A stretch of DNA of 64,000 nt from Candidatus Dormiibacterota bacterium (lineage in GTDB: Bacteria; Acidobacteriota; Polarisedimenticolia; Gp22-AA2): contig DASQAT010000028.1 in the NCBI GenBank assembly GCA_035635555.1, forward strand, positions 71,885-135,884, in the 5' to 3' direction. The notes below the pieces were generated by a model, which saw nothing but the letters and a program-made list of their open reading frames with translations, was not told the origin of the DNA and made no database searches. Within the stretch, counting starts at the first letter, position 1; every line of letters begins with the position of its first letter. The position numbers were made by a program, and so were the translations under genes. This document shows, in pieces, positions 38,220 through 48,403 of the stretch.

Positions 38220-40397
38220 ATGAGACGCCCCGTCGTTCTTATTGTCGCGCTGGCCTCATGCCTTCTCACCCTGCCGGCGCTCGCCGACGCCCCGGCCACG
38301 AGCGCATCACCACGCCGCCTCGCTCTCGAGGACCTGGCGCGCCTGGTGCGCCCGAGCGATCCGCAGGTGTCGCCCGACGGAAAATCGATCCTCATCGTGG
38401 TGTCGCGCCCCAACTACGACGACAACCGGCACGAGGCCGAGCTGGTCCTCGTCGACGTGGCGACCAAGGCGCAGCGGATCCTCACGCGCGAACGCGAGGA
38501 GCTCGCCCATCCGCGCTGGTCTCCGGACGGGGCGCGGATCGCCTTCCTGGCCAAGGGCACGCCGAAGAAGCCGGCGAAGAAGGACGATGCCGGAACGCCG
38601 GCTGCCGCGGAACAGAAAGATGAAGAGGGTCGCCGGCAGATCTTCGTGCTGCCGATGAACGGCGGCGACGCGCTGCAGATCACGGACGCCTGGGGCGGCG
38701 TGCAGCAGTTCGCCTGGAGGCCCGACGGCGGCGCTCTCGCCTTCGTGACCGAAGACGTTCCCGCGAAGCTCGAGGAGATGAAGAAGGGGGAGGACGCCTT
38801 CGAGGTCGGGGACAACGATTTCCTGGCGCAGGAGGCGCCGAACCGGTCGCACATCTGGCTGGTGCCGTCCGAGGGCGGAGGGGCGAAGCGGCTCACGTCC
38901 GGAACCTGGTCCCTGCCCGTGAGCCAGCCGCCCGGTCCTCCCTCGTCCCCCCTGTCCTGGTCGCCCGACGGCAAGAGCATCGCCTTCACGCGCCAGGAGA
39001 GGCCGCACTTCGGCGACTCCGATCAGTCGTCCATCCAGATCCTCGACGTCGCCACGGGAGCCGTGCGCCCGCTGACCGGTCGCCGGACCCTGGAAGGGTA
39101 TCCGAGCTTCAGCCCCGACGGCCGGCAGGTCGCCCTGTGGTATCCGCGCGACGGAAACCCGAACAACGTCAACGAGGTCGCCGTCGTCCCGGCGGCGGGA
39201 GGGGAGCCGAGGGTCGTGACCCGCGCGCTCGACCGCTGTCTGTACCGATCGATCTGGATGCCGGACGGCCGCGCGCTCCTGGTGGGCGGCAACGACGGCA
39301 CGCGCGTCTCGCTGTGGCTCCAGCCGGTCGACGGGAAGGCGCGCCGGCTCGACCTCGGCAGGGCGAACCCCTCCTGGTCGTTCTGGATCGACGCGGCCGT
39401 GGCGCCGGGCGGCGCCATCGCTTTCACCGGCAGCGAGTCGCAGCACCCGACCGAGCTGTACTACATGGCCTCGGCCGACTCACCTGCGCAGCGGCTGACC
39501 TCGTTCAACGATCCGGTGGCGGCTCTCGACCTCGGACGCGTCGAGAGCATCGCGTGGCAGGGGCCCGACCGCTGGTCGGAGGACGGCGTGCTGATCTACC
39601 CGCCGGACTTCGACGCGCGCAGGACGTATCCGATGGTGCTCCTGATCCACGGCGGACCGCAGGCGGCCTCGACCGAGAGCTTCTCGACCTTCGGCCAGCT
39701 GATGGCCGCGCGCGGCTACATCGTCTTCCAGCCGAACTACCGCGGCAGCGACAATCTCGGCAACGCCTACCAGCGCGCCATCGTCAACGACGCCGGCGCC
39801 GGCCCGGGCAGGGACGTCATGGCCGGTCTCAAGGTCGTGAAGGACCGCGGCTCGGTCGACGCCTCGCGCATCGGAGTCTCGGGCTGGTCGTACGGCGGCT
39901 TCATGACCTCGTGGCTCATCGGCCACTACGACGAATGGAAGACGGCCGTGGCCGGCGCCCCGGTCACCGACTGGGTTGACCAGTACAATCTGTCGGATTT
40001 CAACGTGCAGGCGCGCTGGTCGTTCGAAGGATCGCCCTGGACGGGCGGGCGCGAGAAGTCGTACCGCGAGCAGTCGCCGATCACCTACGCCGGCCGCATC
40101 AAGACCCCCACGCTCATCCTCTCGGACACCGGCGACGCGCGCGTCCCCGTGACCCAGTCGTACCGCCTGTACCACGCCCTCAAGGACAACGGCGTCGACA
40201 CACGCTTCGTCGCCTGGCCCGTCGCGGGGCATTTCCCCTCGGACCCCGTGCGTATGCGCTCGGTCTACCGCGAATGGATCGGCTGGCTCGACGCCCACCT
40301 CAATCCGACTCCCGAGGGGACGCCGGCGAGCGACAAGAAGCCGCAGAAGCTGCCCGACGAAGTGAAAGCGGCGCCGGCGGGGGCGTCGGAGCACTGA
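38220..40397 (+). CDS. Secreted S9-family prolyl oligopeptidase/acylaminoacyl peptidase
   Basis: 725 residues. A signal peptide (LIVALASCLLTLPALA) leads into a beta-propeller of WD40/PD40-like blades (about 40-450) with repeated SPDG motifs (QVSPDGKSI, RWSPDGARI, AWRPDGGAL, SWSPDGKSI, SFSPDGRQV). The alpha/beta-hydrolase domain follows (about 455-700) with the full triad: Ser557 in GWSYGGF, Asp639 in DARVPV and His671 in AGHFPSD. S9 enzymes cut short peptides after Pro or release N-acyl amino acids; this one should act in the periplasm. GAAGGAG lies 8 bases before the ATG. The C-terminal 25 residues are Lys/Pro/Ala-rich and probably disordered. The tRNA-Leu gene is convergent 26 bases downstream. 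Confidence 0.93.
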   Translation: MRRPVVLIVALASCLLTLPALADAPATSASPRRLALEDLARLVRPSDPQVSPDGKSILIVVSRPNYDDNRHEAELVLVDVATKAQRILTREREELAHPRWSPDGARIAFLAKGTPKKPAKKDDAGTPAAAEQKDEEGRRQIFVLPMNGGDALQITDAWGGVQQFAWRPDGGALAFVTEDVPAKLEEMKKGEDAFEVGDNDFLAQEAPNRSHIWLVPSEGGGAKRLTSGTWSLPVSQPPGPPSSPLSWSPDGKSIAFTRQERPHFGDSDQSSIQILDVATGAVRPLTGRRTLEGYPSFSPDGRQVALWYPRDGNPNNVNEVAVVPAAGGEPRVVTRALDRCLYRSIWMPDGRALLVGGNDGTRVSLWLQPVDGKARRLDLGRANPSWSFWIDAAVAPGGAIAFTGSESQHPTELYYMASADSPAQRLTSFNDPVAALDLGRVESIAWQGPDRWSEDGVLIYPPDFDARRTYPMVLLIHGGPQAASTESFSTFGQLMAARGYIVFQPNYRGSDNLGNAYQRAIVNDAGAGPGRDVMAGLKVVKDRGSVDASRIGVSGWSYGGFMTSWLIGHYDEWKTAVAGAPVTDWVDQYNLSDFNVQARWSFEGSPWTGGREKSYREQSPITYAGRIKTPTLILSDTGDARVPVTQSYRLYHALKDNGVDTRFVAWPVAGHFPSDPVRMRSVYREWIGWLDAHLNPTPEGTPASDKKPQKLPDEVKAAPAGASEH

Positions 40398-40423: not shown

Positions 40424-40510
40424 TGGTGCCGGAGGTCGGACTCGAACCGACATGGGCTTGCGCCCGCGGGATTTTGAGTCCCGTGCGTCTACCAGTTTCG
40501 CCACTCCGGC
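40424..40510 (-). tRNA. tRNA-Leu (anticodon CAA), CCA encoded
   Basis: An 87-base minus-strand cloverleaf. The acceptor stem GCCGGAG pairs with CTCCGGC and is followed by A and an encoded CCA. The D arm has the leucine pattern TGGCGAAACTGGTAGACGC. The anticodon stem-loop is CGGGA-CTCAAAA-TCCCG, giving CAA (reads UUG). A long variable arm (CGGGCGCAAGCCC) marks a class II tRNA, and the T loop is GGTTCGAGTCC. Every feature fits Leu rather than Ser. No integrase gene or att-like repeat is visible nearby. Confidence 0.96.
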
Positions 40511-41520: not shown

Positions 41521-44500
41521 ATGAGGTGTCGGTCCCTAATCTTCCCGCTTCTCACCCTGTTGCTCCTGCCGCTCGGGGCCGGACTGGCGCGCGCCCACGA
41601 CGGCCAGGTCAGTCTGGCGCTGGGGGACCTGGAGGTCACCCAGTCGGTCCAGACCCGCCCACAGGTGCCGGCGGACCCGGGCATCGGTCTGTCGGCCCAC
41701 AAGCCGACCGCCATCCGGGCCTACATCCAGGCGCAGCGCTACATCCACTTCAGCATCCTGGGATTCAGCTTTCATTTCCCGACCTTCTTTCCTCCCGTCA
41801 GCGTGAACGGCACGCTCACGGTGAGGCAGGGAGCGACGGTCATCGCGACGCTGGCGCCCATCAACGGACCGATCTCCGTGGCCCCCTGGACGAGCCCGAA
41901 CCCGGAGAACGCCAACAGCAGTCTCACCTTCACCTGGGCCTTCCCTCCGAGCGGCAACGTGTCGTTCGAGCTGGCCCTGTCGTCCTCCACACCGAACATC
42001 AACGTGTTGAGCCCGCCGTCGACGAGCCGCGACTTCATCCATAACCAGCGTCTACGCGTGGAGGGGGTGCGGCTGCAGTTCGACAGCGACGCGACACGCA
42101 TCGCCGACGCGGGGATGGCGGCGAACGGGATGGCCTGGTTCCTGAAGGCGGGGCCGCTGGCCCCCTGCAAGCTGCAGTACTGGCTGAACCCGACCGTGAA
42201 GCAGTGGCCGACCGATCTCTCGACGACGGTCGACGGCACGCTGCTCGATTCGCTGGCGCTGATGCGCACGGTCGGCGGGACGACCTACGACAACGTCTAC
42301 GGCTGGTGGCCCGGACCGGTCAACGGCAACGGGCTGTCCCAGCTTCCGTCCTGCGCGGCCCCGCACGATGTCGCCGCCTACGGCAACACCGAGGCGAGCC
42401 GCTTCCAGCGCACCTTCAACCACGAGCTGTACCACAACTATTGCCAGGTGCATCAGTCGATGGCGACCGGTCAGATCGGAATCACCGGCTTCGACACCGA
42501 CCTCGCGGTGCCCGTCTCCTCCAGCCAGTTCGACGTCATGGTGCCCGGCCTGTTCACGAGCCAGGCGTGGCAGAGTCCGTCGCGCTACTCGCACTTCTGG
42601 AACCTGTGGCAGGCCACGACGCCCGAGTCGCTCTTCGACTCCTGTCACTTCAACTGGTGGCAGGTCATCCCGATCGACGTGTTCATGCCGTACGGTCTGC
42701 TGAACCCTCCCGAGGAGGAGCTGCCGACGATCGACATCGGGTTCATCAACGGCATCATCAACCCCGAGGGGACGGGCGTCCTCTGGCCGACCTGGCGCCT
42801 GAAGCGGGCCGTGCCGATCGAGCGCGGCGGGAAGGGCCGGTTCGCGATCGAGCTCATCGGAGTCAATGGCCAGGTCCTGGAGGCCCGGCAGTTCGACGCC
42901 AACTTCCAGGGGGACGGAGAGGAGCCGACTCCGTACGCGTTCAGCTTCCGGATGCCGACTCCGCTCAACGCGGACGGGAATTCGGAGGTCATGGAAGTCC
43001 GGCTGCTCGACGGCGACGCGATCCTGGACAGGCAGGCGGTCAGCCTGCTCCTGCCGGCGGTGCAGATCCTCGCTCCCGATCCCCGGCAGATGCCGAAGCT
43101 CGACCGGCCGTTCCTGCTGTCCTGGAACGCCACCGACCAGGACAGCCCGGAGATCTACTCCTCCGTGCAATACAGCCCGGACGGCGGGCAGCACTTCATC
43201 TCGCTGACCGGCAACATGGAGGACCGGAGCGCCCTGACGCTCGATCCGGCGAATCTCCCCGGCAGCAACAACGGGATCATCCGGGTCACGGTCAGCGACG
43301 GCTACAACACCGCCGAGGCGACGGCCGGTCCCTTCGTCGTGGCGCGCAAGAAGCCCGTTGTGGTGATCGCGGAGCCGGTTCCTCCTTCGAAGGACCAGCC
43401 GGCCGTGGCCGGCGAGGGGAAGCCGGTGACCTTGATGGGGTATGGCAGCAGCCCGGACGACGGCGTCCTGCCGGGCGATCAGCTGCAGTGGTCGTCGGAT
43501 CTCCAGGGACCGCTCGGGACGGGGTACAACCTGGACGTTCAGCTCAAGGCCGGGCGGCACGTGATCACCCTCACGGGGATCGACCGCTTCGGCGTCGCGG
43601 GCGTGGCGCAGATCCCGATCGATGTCTCGCCGCTGACGAGAGACACGGACTTCGACGGCACGCCCGATTACGCCGATCGCTGCCCGACCATCCCCGGACC
43701 GCCCGAGAACGACGGCTGCCCGTATCCGTTCGAGCAGCAGCCCCTGCAGGTGAAGGTCTCCATCCTGGATTCGCAGGGCACGCCGACCCAGACGTTCGAC
43801 AGCTTCTTCGATGTGTTCTTCGAAGTCGAGCTCAAGAACCCGCGGCCGGTGGACCTTGCCTGCAAGGGGACGCACGTCACGCTGACCGATCCGGCGGGCG
43901 CCCTCCACATCATCGACAAGTCGACTCCGCTTCTCATGAAGCCGGGGGAGACACAGACCCTGCGCTTCAGCTTCTTCGACATCTTCCAGGGCACGGCCCC
44001 GCCCACCGGAGGATACGGGGTCGTCTTCGAGCCAAACCTGAGCCCGCTGGCGCCTCTCGGCCGCGCGGGCGGCGGGTTCGTGGTGGATCCGAACATCCGC
44101 ACGATCTGCAACGAGTCGACGGCGGGCGAGCCGGGCACCCGGGTCGCCGTGCCGATCACTCTCGACAACGGTGACAGCGTGGCCGGATTCCAGGTGGATG
44201 TCTCCTACAACGCCGCGCTGCTCAGCGTGGCGGCCGTGGAGCTGGGCGCCGACACAACCGCGGCGGGGGGGTGGACGGTGAACAGCGCTCCCGTCGGACC
44301 GGGCGTCGTGCGTATCCTCGGGTCGAGCAATCCGCCCGTGGGCTTGGGCCCCGGACCGCGCGAAGTCGCCCTGATCGATTTCGACATCGTCGCGTCGGCC
44401 CCGAACGGCCCGGTACCGCTCGCCGAGAAGAACTGCGTCCTCAGCGATCCGGCGGGACGCTCGATCCCCTGCCAGCCGTGCCGGCAGCCCGGTTCGATCA

Positions 44501-45432
44501 TCGTGCGCAACGCCAGCAGCTTCTCGTTCCAGCCGATCCCCTCGCCGGTCGGAGTCGATCCGTTTGACCCGCTGCCGTTCCTGGTGAAGGTGGCGGCGCT
44601 TAATTCCCTGGGGACACTCGCGTCCGGCTACAACGCCGTCGACCCGATGGCGGTCGGGCCGATCTGCTCCGGGAAACTCGTCCCCGCCACGATGAACTTC
44701 GCCGGCGGTCTGGGCTCGCAGGTCTACAACCTGCGCTGCTGCCTCGATCCGTTCCTTCCCGGGACCGCCTTCCCCCTGAATCTCACGGTGTCCGATCCGC
44801 CGATCCTGATCTCGGGGACGAGCGATCCGTTCCAGGGGGTGGCGAAGGGAGACGTGGACGCCAGCGGAGGAGTGAACGTCCTCGACGTGCAGCGCGACGT
44901 CCGCCAGGCGTTGCTCATCCCGGTGGCGACTCCGCCGCCGACCACGTTCCAGTTCTGGGCCGGCAACATGCTGGACCAGGACTGCGGGGTCGACGGGACG
45001 ATCAACGTTCTCGACGTGGTGCGGGTCAGGAACAAGGCGCTGGGTCGCCCGCCCCTCTGTCCGTGCATCGGGACGGCCGCGGGGGCCGCGCTGCGCGTCG
45101 CCTCCCCTCCGATCGGCGTGAGTCTCGTCAAGGAGAGTCAGCGCAGCTATCTGCTGACCGTCAAGGGGGCCGTCGATCTGAGCGGCCTGCAGATCGATCT
45201 GCGCAACGCCTCCCCGAACACGACGATCACGGCGGCCGGCCTGGCAGCGCAGGGCTGGCAGATCACGAGCGACACCGGTCACGGGGCGCGCCTGAGAGTG
45301 ATCCTCTTCAGCGCCTCGGGAGCCGGCGTGAACGGTGACGGCGCCATCCTGCGCATCACCGGCGCGGGCAGCCCGAGCCTCGAGGCGATCGTCCTCTCCG
45401 ACTCGGCCGGCCGTAACATCACGCTGCGCTAG
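41521..45432 (+). CDS. Large secreted zinc-protease-like protein with TSP3, cohesin-like and dockerin-like modules
   Basis: 1303 residues with a signal peptide (SLIFPLLTLLLLPLGAGLARA). The N-terminal half holds a metalloprotease motif HELYHNYCQVH at 301-311, an HExxH with a third His five residues on, but Cys at the position where metzincins have Gly. Ig/Fn-like regions follow, then a thrombospondin type 3-like calcium repeat (about 709-735, DTDFDGTPDYADRCP), and a cohesin-like beta domain (about 860-990). Next are two dockerin-like half repeats (about 1110-1180: GDVDASGGVNVLDVQRDV and CGVDGTINVLDVVRVRN), and finally a short beta domain. AGGAGG lies 4 bases before ATG 41521. The cohesin-like domain is closely similar to one in the convergent neighbour. 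The role is probably extracellular, binding and cutting a polymer or surface protein. Confidence 0.85.
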   Translation: MRCRSLIFPLLTLLLLPLGAGLARAHDGQVSLALGDLEVTQSVQTRPQVPADPGIGLSAHKPTAIRAYIQAQRYIHFSILGFSFHFPTFFPPVSVNGTLTVRQGATVIATLAPINGPISVAPWTSPNPENANSSLTFTWAFPPSGNVSFELALSSSTPNINVLSPPSTSRDFIHNQRLRVEGVRLQFDSDATRIADAGMAANGMAWFLKAGPLAPCKLQYWLNPTVKQWPTDLSTTVDGTLLDSLALMRTVGGTTYDNVYGWWPGPVNGNGLSQLPSCAAPHDVAAYGNTEASRFQRTFNHELYHNYCQVHQSMATGQIGITGFDTDLAVPVSSSQFDVMVPGLFTSQAWQSPSRYSHFWNLWQATTPESLFDSCHFNWWQVIPIDVFMPYGLLNPPEEELPTIDIGFINGIINPEGTGVLWPTWRLKRAVPIERGGKGRFAIELIGVNGQVLEARQFDANFQGDGEEPTPYAFSFRMPTPLNADGNSEVMEVRLLDGDAILDRQAVSLLLPAVQILAPDPRQMPKLDRPFLLSWNATDQDSPEIYSSVQYSPDGGQHFISLTGNMEDRSALTLDPANLPGSNNGIIRVTVSDGYNTAEATAGPFVVARKKPVVVIAEPVPPSKDQPAVAGEGKPVTLMGYGSSPDDGVLPGDQLQWSSDLQGPLGTGYNLDVQLKAGRHVITLTGIDRFGVAGVAQIPIDVSPLTRDTDFDGTPDYADRCPTIPGPPENDGCPYPFEQQPLQVKVSILDSQGTPTQTFDSFFDVFFEVELKNPRPVDLACKGTHVTLTDPAGALHIIDKSTPLLMKPGETQTLRFSFFDIFQGTAPPTGGYGVVFEPNLSPLAPLGRAGGGFVVDPNIRTICNESTAGEPGTRVAVPITLDNGDSVAGFQVDVSYNAALLSVAAVELGADTTAAGGWTVNSAPVGPGVVRILGSSNPPVGLGPGPREVALIDFDIVASAPNGPVPLAEKNCVLSDPAGRSIPCQPCRQPGSIIVRNASSFSFQPIPSPVGVDPFDPLPFLVKVAALNSLGTLASGYNAVDPMAVGPICSGKLVPATMNFAGGLGSQVYNLRCCLDPFLPGTAFPLNLTVSDPPILISGTSDPFQGVAKGDVDASGGVNVLDVQRDVRQALLIPVATPPPTTFQFWAGNMLDQDCGVDGTINVLDVVRVRNKALGRPPLCPCIGTAAGAALRVASPPIGVSLVKESQRSYLLTVKGAVDLSGLQIDLRNASPNTTITAAGLAAQGWQITSDTGHGARLRVILFSASGAGVNGDGAILRITGAGSPSLEAIVLSDSAGRNITLR

Positions 45433-45479
45433 TCGACCGCCTCGACGGAGGGCGCAGGGCGGCCCTCCAGCAACGACTC

Positions 45480-45517
45480 GGGGGTCCCGGGAAACCGGGA
45501 CCCCCTTTTTATTTCTT
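45480..45517 (+). terminator. Strong rho-independent terminator
   Basis: An 11-bp perfect stem GGGGGTCCCGG (45480-45490) / CCGGGACCCCC (45495-45505) with a GAAA tetraloop is followed by TTTTTATTTCTT. It lies 48 bases past the large secreted protein and separates it from the convergent cohesin/cupredoxin gene. Confidence 0.93.
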
Positions 45518-45529
45518 CGATCGGGTGCT

Positions 45530-46534
45530 TCAGGGCTTGTTCGCGACGAGATAGAAGAAGATACCGCCGGCCACCGGAACGGCGGGCTCGGTGAGGGTCG
45601 TCCCGGTGTCCCCGCCGTCGGGGACCAGGCTCGTCGTGGTCGTGCCGGTGAAGGACGGCTCCTCGCCGCGGTGCACGAGGTAGCGACCGCTCCCTCCCTG
45701 CCAGGTCAGCAGGGAGACCCCGGGGCCGCCGGAGAGCATGAGGACGATCGGCCCGGTGACCGCCACCGTTCCGGTCTGGCCGGCGGCGCAGTCGGGCTCG
45801 CAGAAGTAGGGGAGGAGGCTTCCCTCCGGCTCGAGGAACTGCCGGGCGAACTGTTGATCCGGCTGCAGCTCTCCCCGCCAGAGACCGTCCGCCGTGCACG
45901 TGCGCGTCGAGGGGTCGCGCGTGCCGCTGGTGGTCGTATGGAAGAGACTCGAGCCGACGTTGTCCCACAGCACCCAGTCCCCCTGCTCCACGACGATGGC
46001 GGAGGGATGGAAGACGAGGTCATCCTGCGCCAGGGAGATGAAAAATCGCGGCGCCGCCAGGGTGACACCGGGCTGGAGGCAGATCGTACACGGCAGGGAC
46101 AGCGCGTTCACGTCCCCCAGCACGCAGCCTGACAGAGGGAGGGGCATGTTGCTCAGCGAGGCCGCGGCGACGACGTCGAAATCGACGATGGCCATCCTCT
46201 TGAAGCCCGGGGTGAGCGCGCGGGGGGGATTGGTGTAGAGGAGCACCGTCATGATGCCGGGGCCCCGCAGGGCGCTGTCCACGAGCCAGACGCCGGCCGC
46301 CGCGGTGTCCGCGCCGAGATGGACGGCCGCCGGCGCCAGGTTCGCCGGGTCGAAATGGATGTCGACCTGCATCCCGGCCACGCCGTCGCCGTCGAACAGA
46401 GTGATCGGGATCCCCACCCGCGTCCCGGGGGGCGCGGTCAGGAATCCGGCGCAGAGTTCGTGCGGAGCCGCGATCGCGGGAGATGCCGCAAGGAGGGCCG
46501 CAACCATCAGGACGGGCACGAGGGGACGGCGCAT
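45530..46534 (-). CDS. Secreted cohesin-like plus cupredoxin-like protein
   Basis: 334 residues. The signal peptide is PLVPVLMVAALLAASPAIAA. A cohesin-like domain (about 27-150) shares the pattern PGTRVGIPITLFDGDGVAGM, LGADTAAAGVW and AIVDFDVV with the large convergent neighbour. A cupredoxin-like domain (about 165-255) has FHPSAIVVEQGDWVLWDN, a His in SSLFHTTTS and a Cys in LLPYFCEPDC; the usual second His of the copper site appears replaced by Asp, so copper binding is uncertain. The C-terminal 75 residues form a small domain ending GGIFFYLVANKP. ATG 46534 is chosen because the signal peptide starts there and GGAAGGTGA lies upstream. It is expressed from its own divergent promoter. Confidence 0.82.
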   Translation of the reverse strand: MRRPLVPVLMVAALLAASPAIAAPHELCAGFLTAPPGTRVGIPITLFDGDGVAGMQVDIHFDPANLAPAAVHLGADTAAAGVWLVDSALRGPGIMTVLLYTNPPRALTPGFKRMAIVDFDVVAAASLSNMPLPLSGCVLGDVNALSLPCTICLQPGVTLAAPRFFISLAQDDLVFHPSAIVVEQGDWVLWDNVGSSLFHTTTSGTRDPSTRTCTADGLWRGELQPDQQFARQFLEPEGSLLPYFCEPDCAAGQTGTVAVTGPIVLMLSGGPGVSLLTWQGGSGRYLVHRGEEPSFTGTTTTSLVPDGGDTGTTLTEPAVPVAGGIFFYLVANKP

Positions 46535-46659: not shown

Positions 46660-46711
46660 CCGCCCCCTCCCGGGGATCTCAGGATCGGACCGGGAGAGCG
46701 GGGGATGGACG

Positions 46712-48403
46712 ATGAGGCTGCGCGCACGCGGGCTGGCGATCTTCTTGATCACGATCGGCGCATCAATCGCCGCGGTCGCTGACGAGCCGGTCGATCTCAA
46801 GACGGTGCACAGGATCAAGGACGAGGCGTTCCGCGACTCGAAGGTGATGGACCACCTCTTCTTCCTGACCGACGTGAACGGTCCGAGGCTGACCGGGTCG
46901 CCGGGGTGGCGCTCGGCGGCCGAGTGGGCGATGACGAGCCTGAAGGGCTGGGGCGTCGCCGGGCCGCATCTCGAGACGTGGGGGCGCTTCGGGCGCGGCT
47001 GGACGCTGCAGCGCTTCTCGGCGAGCCTGCTGCAGCCGGTGTACGCGCCTCTGCACGGCGTCCCGAAGGCCTGGACGTCGGGCACTCAGGGGCCTGTGAG
47101 CGGGGACGTCGTGTTCGCGCCGCTGTTCGAAGAGAAGCAGACCGGTGAAATCTGGGACCTGGAGACACTCGCTGCCGGGATCCGCGACTACGCCTCGAAG
47201 CAGAAGGGGAAGCTGCGTGGCAAGATCGTCCTGATCGAGCCGCCCCCGAACCCCGCGCTGCCGACCAAACCGCTGGTCGAGCGTTACGACGACCCCAAGC
47301 TCGAGCTCCTGGCCCAGGGCCCGGAGCCCGAGCCGTTGCCCCCCCTGGAGTGGCCGCTGCAGCGCCTGCCCGCCGACCGCGAGGAGCGCGAGAAGGTGAC
47401 CGGCTCGCTCCCCCAGGAGGTGACCTCCGACTTCTACGTGAGACGCCGGAGGGTGCTGGATCGCCTGAGCGGCTTCCTGCGTGACGAAGGGGTGACGGCG
47501 GTCCTCGCGGGGGACAAGCGGGGGAACGGCGGCATCGTGTTCGCCGAGGGGGTGCGGTCGGGGGATCCGGACGCCCCGGTGTCTCCCCCCTGCGTCGTCC
47601 TGGCGCCCGAGTCGTACGACCGGCTGGTCCGGCTGACGGGCCGCGGCGTCCCGGTGAAGGTCTCGCTCGACATCGAGGCGAAATTCATCGACGACACGCT
47701 CGACGCGTCGAACCTCATCGCCGAGATCCCGGGGGGGCGCAGGAAGGACGAGATCGTGATGCTGGGAGCCCACCTCGACTCGTGGCACGGAGGCACGGGG
47801 GCCACGGACAACGCCGCCGGGTGCGCCGTCGTCCTGGAGGCGATGCGCATCTTGAAGACGCTCGATCTCAAGATGGACCGCACGGTGCGCCTGGTCCTCT
47901 GGAGCGGCGAGGAGCAGGGCCTCCTGGGGTCGCGCGCCTACGTCAAGGAGCACTTCGCCGATCCGGTCACGATGGCGCCGAAGCCCGAGCACGCGCGGCT
48001 GTCGGCCTACTTCAATCTCGACAACGGCTCGGGGAGGATTCGCGGCGTCTACCTGCAGGGAAACGACATGGCGCGGCCGATCTTCCAGTCCTGGCTCGCT
48101 CCATTCAAGGACCTGGGGGCGACGACCCTGGCCCTGGCGGACACGGGGGGCACCGACCACAAGTCGTTCGACGCCGTCGGTCTCCCAGGCTTCCAGTTCA
48201 TCCAGGACCCGCTCGATTACATGACGCGCACGCACCACTCGGATCTCGACGTGTACGACCGCGCCGTGCCGGCCGACCTGATGCAGGCGTCCGCCATCAT
48301 GGCCTCGTTCGTCTATCACGCCGCGACGCGCCCCGACCTGCTGCCGCGCAAACCGTTGCCGCCGGCGCTGCCGAAACAACAGAAGCCGCCCGCCGCGCCC
48401 TAG
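46712..48403 (+). CDS. Secreted M28-family zinc metallopeptidase (second copy)
   Basis: 563 residues. A signal peptide (LAIFLITIGASIAAVA) is followed by the same architecture as the peptidase at 8655-10343, with the M28 ligands GAHLDSWHGG, GATDNAAG, SGEEQGLLGS, TGGTDHKSFD and RTHHSDLD all present. Similarity runs through the whole length (VMDHLF-LTDVNGPRLTGSPG near the start, LLPRKPLPP at the end), and 35 nucleotides at 47756-47790 are identical to 9696-9730. It is a paralogue from a duplication rather than an assembly repeat, because the rest differs freely. GGGGGAT lies 7 bases before the ATG. The stop overlaps the stop of the convergent TPR/glycosyltransferase gene in CTAG. Confidence 0.92.
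   Translation: MRLRARGLAIFLITIGASIAAVADEPVDLKTVHRIKDEAFRDSKVMDHLFFLTDVNGPRLTGSPGWRSAAEWAMTSLKGWGVAGPHLETWGRFGRGWTLQRFSASLLQPVYAPLHGVPKAWTSGTQGPVSGDVVFAPLFEEKQTGEIWDLETLAAGIRDYASKQKGKLRGKIVLIEPPPNPALPTKPLVERYDDPKLELLAQGPEPEPLPPLEWPLQRLPADREEREKVTGSLPQEVTSDFYVRRRRVLDRLSGFLRDEGVTAVLAGDKRGNGGIVFAEGVRSGDPDAPVSPPCVVLAPESYDRLVRLTGRGVPVKVSLDIEAKFIDDTLDASNLIAEIPGGRRKDEIVMLGAHLDSWHGGTGATDNAAGCAVVLEAMRILKTLDLKMDRTVRLVLWSGEEQGLLGSRAYVKEHFADPVTMAPKPEHARLSAYFNLDNGSGRIRGVYLQGNDMARPIFQSWLAPFKDLGATTLALADTGGTDHKSFDAVGLPGFQFIQDPLDYMTRTHHSDLDVYDRAVPADLMQASAIMASFVYHAATRPDLLPRKPLPPALPKQQKPPAAP

Follow-up and report, generated by a model that had tools for sequence, protein, structure and literature searches.

We describe a candidate docking tail, composed of a cohesin, an X domain, a dockerin-like module and a C-terminal domain, that ends a secreted metzincin-like protein in the window (the whole 64,000-nucleotide stretch of DNA analysed here) and a tyrosinase protein in a sister genome of the same genus (G001). 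In both genomes it is accompanied by the gene for a second secreted protein with a related cohesin. Judged from sequence comparison, the best reading of this arrangement, to which we assign a probability of about 50%, is a dockerin-cohesin assembly that would join a secreted enzyme to an adaptor partner.

Organization of the locus

The larger of the two open reading frames (ORFs; 41521..45432, plus strand) encodes P0001, a secreted modular protein comprising, in order, a signal peptide, a metzincin-like head, a thrombospondin type 3 (TSP3) repeat, a first cohesin (cohesin 1), an X domain, a dockerin-like module and a C-terminal beta domain. The smaller (45530..46534, minus strand) encodes P0002, its secreted partner, in which a signal peptide is followed by a cohesin, a cupredoxin-like domain and a C-terminal domain. 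Both ORFs are present where the original prediction had placed them, with lengths of 1303 and 334 amino acids; they are convergent and separated by 97 bp, with a terminator-like hairpin (45480..45505, plus strand) between them. No recognised anchor that would place the proposed assembly on the cell surface was found in either protein.

The pair is flanked on one side by an S9 prolyl-oligopeptidase gene (E 2e-46; window 38220-40397) and on the other by an M28 aminopeptidase gene (E 7e-35; window 46688-48403), and the locus may thus be one for protein degradation. A tRNA-Leu (CAA) gene (window 40424-40510, minus strand), approximately 1 kb upstream of the P0001 gene, is one place where mobile DNA could have inserted. 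Elsewhere, window 14220-36156 contains two ORFs of very great length (3238 and 4078 amino acids). By eye, the second appears to be a non-ribosomal peptide synthetase with several modules, in which condensation, adenylation, carrier and thioesterase motifs can be made out.

Both proteins contain a cohesin of a cysteine-rich branch

Cohesin 1 of P0001 spans residues 861-992 (44101..44496, plus strand), and the cohesin of P0002 residues 23-157 (46064..46468, minus strand). Within the former, residues 866-963 match the Pfam cohesin family PF00963 (E 2e-7; 31.7 bits) above its cut-off of 24.1 bits, whereas residues 33-101 of P0002 score below it (E 9e-4; 19.9 bits). The two domains are 49% identical over 126 residues in an alignment without gaps, and a genome search with P0001 retrieves the cohesin region of P0002 at E 1e-33. 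Both are also detected (at 35 and 25 bits, respectively) by a class cohesin profile constructed from 30 other Pfam cohesins, mostly from the same bacterial class; when aligned with this 30-cohesin profile, the four-member subfamily formed by the cohesins of the window and the sister genome yields an hhalign probability of 96.7 (E 3.7e-10). The shared cohesin-like domain that had been proposed from pattern and spacing is therefore borne out.

All four members of the subfamily have four cysteines in common, while at least four cysteines occur in just two of the 30 other cohesins compared, pointing to a distinct and probably disulfide-stabilised branch. Cohesin 1 is 64-66% identical to its copy in the sister genome. 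The fold expected of a cohesin is a nine-stranded jelly roll; an AlphaFold model of the P0001 tail draws strands over cohesin 1, at a mean pLDDT (33.7) too low to trust, and the P0002 model (mean pLDDT 33-34) is likewise too low for use.

A degenerate dockerin in the P0001 tail

Cohesin 1 is separated from the dockerin-like module by the X domain (residues 993-1108; 44497..44844, plus strand), a region that is conserved in the sister genome and for which there was no Pfam match of note. The dockerin-like module itself (residues 1109-1177; 44845..45051, plus strand) is likewise conserved there. Its match to Pfam Dockerin_1 (PF00404; E 0.058, 14.0 bits) fails the 22.9-bit cut-off, but an 82-residue segment of P0001 scores 17.8 bits against a class-specific profile built on 27 dockerins of these genomes, a value reached by only one of 5000 shuffles, so that the module is best described as a diverged or degenerate dockerin whose resemblance exceeds chance. 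The duplicated calcium loop noted earlier as dockerin-like holds in this degenerate form. Dockerins with weak scores can be genuine (PMC12997984).

The two loops, D1111-V-D-A-S-G-G-V-N-V-L-D1122 (44851-44886, plus strand) and D1154-C-G-V-D-G-T-I-N-V-L-D1165 (44980-45015, plus strand), are spaced 43 residues apart, and each enters a presumed helix with a common NVLDV motif. Positions 1, 3, 5 and 12, which are Asp or Asn in a type I dockerin loop, are occupied by D1111, D1113, S1115 and D1122 in loop 1, and by D1154, G1156, D1158 and D1165 in loop 2, where the glycine at position 3 is degenerate. Loop 2 of the sister copy contains histidine at position 1 and valine at position 3; with the acidic residues gone, one calcium site has probably been lost there.

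The tail ends in a domain (residues 1186-1303; 45076..45429, plus strand) that is also conserved in the sister genome. It looks cohesin-like by eye and is possibly a diverged second cohesin, a reading to which profile comparison lends no support (hhalign probability of only 3% against cohesins).

A metzincin-like head and a TSP3 repeat

The putative protease head of P0001 (42058..42780, plus strand) contains the zinc motif H301-E-L-Y-H305-N-Y-C-Q-V-H311 (42421-42453; HExxH at residues 301-305) and a Met-turn, D338-V-M-V-P (DVMVPG). Compared with the metzincin pattern HExxHxxGxxH, the P0001 motif HELYHNYCQVH has cysteine in place of glycine. A region 52% identical to this head, within a 2376-residue Kelch protein of G001, keeps both HELYHNYHQVH and DVMVPG; the predicted HExxH protease motif thus stands, in a metzincin-like form that is conserved, with its Met-turn, in a relative. 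The P0001 head matched no Pfam family and no Pfam peptidase, and such heads (window 41521-43500; locus L045 5228-12358) possibly represent an undescribed peptidase family.

The TSP3-like calcium-binding repeat between head and tail (residues 707-734; 43639..43722, plus strand), another element of the original prediction, is corroborated by its likeness to the repeats of an OmpA-family TSP3 structure (PDB 5wtl; E 1e-13 for the whole chain). Against Pfam TSP_3 it scores under the cut-off (E 0.022).

A decayed copper site in the partner

The cupredoxin-like domain of P0002 (residues 158-261; 45752..46063, minus strand) is nearest to plastocyanins, and the matches that uphold its earlier assignment are weak (E 0.003-0.017 for Pfam; E 0.0013 for plastocyanin 1pcs). 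It is followed by a C-terminal domain (residues 262-334; 45533..45751, minus strand) common to cupredoxin relatives that lack a cohesin. These cohesin-free relatives, from the genus and the order, retain all four type 1 copper ligands (His, Cys, His, Met), whereas the set is incomplete in P0002 (His, Cys, Asp, Gln) and in the partner from the sister genome (His, Ser, Asp, Met). A third copy, in genome G004 (contig C82), has the Ser/Asp pattern, and its contig ends before the expected position of a cohesin. Decay of the copper site in the cohesin-bearing branch speaks for a role in binding or as an adaptor, and P0002 is probably an adaptor rather than an electron carrier; with copper ligands missing, a role in copper electron transfer was rejected.

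Cohesins and dockerins elsewhere in the genome and its relatives

The genome containing the window yielded seven hits to cohesin, along with two dockerins above the Pfam cut-off. No multi-cohesin scaffoldin was found, as no chain contains two of the seven cohesin hits, and no glycoside hydrolase was found in P0001, P0002, the neighbouring genes or those dockerin proteins whose sequences were inspected by eye. In this genome, the inspected ones contain what look like FN3/IPT, DUF11-like and FG-GAP-like repeats.

Sixty relatives together contain 16 cases of a dockerin gene and a cohesin gene at most 2 kb apart, against 0.26 expected. Neighbouring cohesin and dockerin genes are thus a habit of the class, which renders an interaction between the products of the window pair more plausible. 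One recurrent arrangement consists of an exported dockerin protein (often of ∼280 amino acids and FN3-type) followed by a cohesin protein of ∼200 amino acids with a lipoprotein-like signal, and sometimes by a third gene, for another cohesin protein, the ORFs touching or overlapping. It occurs in the same genome as the window (L017 6471-8928, contig C26) and in relatives (L080, L081, L089, L095 and L099), scores better than the window pair, and is probably a dedicated surface docking pair.

The best cohesin in the genome (Pfam E 5e-10) forms the end of an outer-membrane secretin, one of the sort that serves type II secretion or pili (L016 4466-6931, contig C6). Open frames of ∼800 amino acids with cohesins recur in many relatives. 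The secretin cohesin could offer exported proteins with a dockerin a place to dock.

The tail is retained, with its partner gene, on a different enzyme

In G001, the tail (cohesin, X domain, dockerin and C-terminal domain) is attached not to a protease but to a head with a tyrosinase domain (E 6e-13) and, after it, a laminin-G domain (E 8e-17), while the protease head is encoded on a separate contig, fused to the Kelch repeats. The cohesin-cupredoxin gene lies directly downstream of the tail gene on the same strand, in tandem, in contrast to the convergent arrangement in the window; tail and partner genes are within 1 kb of each other in both genomes, and their orientation and flanking genes differ. 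Given this change in gene order, co-transcription is not conserved. Since different heads occupy the same tail, and the protease head occurs elsewhere, head and tail are independent parts, whereas tail and partner stay together. The two thus behave like a cassette, attached to one secreted enzyme in the window and to another in G001.

Overall, the tail was detected in two of 41 genomes of the class (that of the window and G001), both of which contain the partner; the remaining 39 yielded no tail and no intact partner with a cohesin, and a wider draw of 396 genomes from the phylum gave only distant single cohesins. The finding thus goes beyond what was originally put forward, since the tail changes enzymes in company with its partner. 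With just two genomes of one genus, the pairing could reflect shared ancestry.

Conservation is uneven along the tail. Between the window and G001, the tail (∼440-460 residues; P0001 residues 840-1303) is 55% identical, with values of 52% for the X domain, 69% for the dockerin and 45% for the C-terminal domain; the dockerin helices are its best conserved stretches (79% and 88%, vs. 55% tail-wide). In known cellulosomal dockerins the helices are the faces that hold cohesins, and the residue pair preceding the last loop aspartate sets specificity. Val-Leu precedes this aspartate in both repeats in both species, and the other dockerins of the genome differ at this position, suggesting a separate specificity.

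These patterns bear on the somewhat doubtful alternative that the cohesin- and dockerin-like modules are inherited spacers, structural or adhesive beta-sandwiches and calcium loops that no longer bind each other, in which case P0001 would simply be a secreted protease and P0002 an unrelated secreted protein that acquired its cohesin copy by duplication. The weak dockerin score and decayed second loop agree with such a history, as do the frequency of domain exchange by duplication between neighbouring genes and the abundance of single cohesins in the class, including those of small secreted proteins and of the secretin end. However, mere spacers would not account well for retention of the whole tail with its partner despite a changed head, orientation and set of flanking genes, nor for a tail in which precisely the dockerin helices are most conserved.

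Proposed role

In the assembly that we favour, the last 440-460 residues of P0001 would serve as a docking tail, carried by whichever secreted enzyme joins it: the metzincin-like protease in the window, the tyrosinase in G001. From the gene next to it would come a soluble partner that displays a like cohesin on a cupredoxin whose copper site has decayed and which is probably free of copper. Once both proteins have been exported, as predicted, the calcium-loop dockerin of the tail would bind the cohesin of the partner, and possibly also cohesin 1 on another enzyme molecule. The outcome would be a small extracellular enzyme-adaptor complex of presumed stoichiometry, whose substrate may be protein, phenolics or matrix. 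Conservation of the pair despite the swapped catalytic head in the sister genome fits such an assembly cassette.

With a cohesin and a dockerin in one chain, the enzyme could also polymerise head to tail. A resulting extracellular fibre, in which the protease or tyrosinase forms a self-scaffolding, scaffoldin-free polymer and the single-cohesin partner acts as both cap and length control, seems improbable.

We think it quite unlikely that the tail is instead a sorting or surface-retention signal read by the export machinery or envelope. One conserved C-terminal module on different secreted enzymes does resemble a sorting domain, yet general sorting domains sit on many proteins and each genome here has a single tail, which at ∼460 residues is long for a signal; the adjacent stand-alone cohesin would also be left unexplained. 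Equally hard to credit is an intramolecular clamp, with the dockerin folding onto cohesin 1 or the C-terminal domain of its own chain and P0002 competing, for although all three modules lie within 440 residues, the low-pLDDT tail model gave no predicted contact, the C-terminal domain is unconfirmed as a cohesin, and the partner cohesin has been retained as a separate gene.

Relation to known systems

Among the closest known systems are non-cellulosomal cohesin and dockerin proteins, as reported for Archaeoglobus fulgidus and by Peer et al. 2009; we take A. fulgidus to have neighbouring genes for two such proteins. Descriptions of cohesins and dockerins that belong to no cellulosome cover many bacteria and archaea (PMC9012536, PMC12997984, PMC8542988). 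Archaeal cohesins and dockerins bind specifically, and in ANME archaea there are proteins that combine a single dockerin with several cohesins (PMC9012536). One cohesin-dockerin pair, from A. fulgidus, serves as a high-affinity tether (PMC9705933). An assembly unlike a cellulosome, as originally envisaged, is therefore not new in itself, and the window pair is probably a small lineage-specific version of a known non-cellulosomal cohesin-dockerin assembly kit. Like the Archaeoglobus and ANME systems, it combines the two module types outside any cellulose system; in contrast to them, the tail follows a protease-like head or a tyrosinase and includes an X domain, each cohesin has four conserved cysteines, and the cohesin that stands alone shares its chain with a decayed cupredoxin.

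Clostridium perfringens, in the account of Adams et al. 2008 given in PMC12997984, links secreted enzymes by cohesin-dockerin contacts without a scaffoldin. The pair described here resembles those complexes, as there summarised, in that secreted enzymes have single cohesins or dockerins and no scaffoldin is present; in the same account every C. perfringens cohesin protein has a glycoside hydrolase, whereas the pair described here has a protease-like or tyrosinase head and a non-catalytic partner. Limousia and Ca. Stygibacter provide examples of peptidases that carry a dockerin (PMC12997984, PMC8542988). As in the cellulosome, amylosome and mucinolysome, a dockerin is found on a secreted enzyme and a cohesin on a non-catalytic partner; unlike the cellulosome, the genome contains no multi-cohesin scaffoldin, each partner has one cohesin, and no dockerin-bearing glycoside hydrolase is present among the dockerin proteins read by eye. 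The titles and abstracts searched describe no Acidobacteri- or tyrosinase-linked cohesin-dockerin pair.

If the modules bind, they would provide, in uncultured-type bacteria, a natural case of an assembly tail swapped between unrelated enzyme classes (protease and tyrosinase) with its partner gene travelling along, as well as a cohesin-dockerin pair that is small, accessible to experiment and marked by conserved cysteines. Such a pair would also offer a lead on the purpose of the many unexplained non-cellulosomal cohesins and dockerins.
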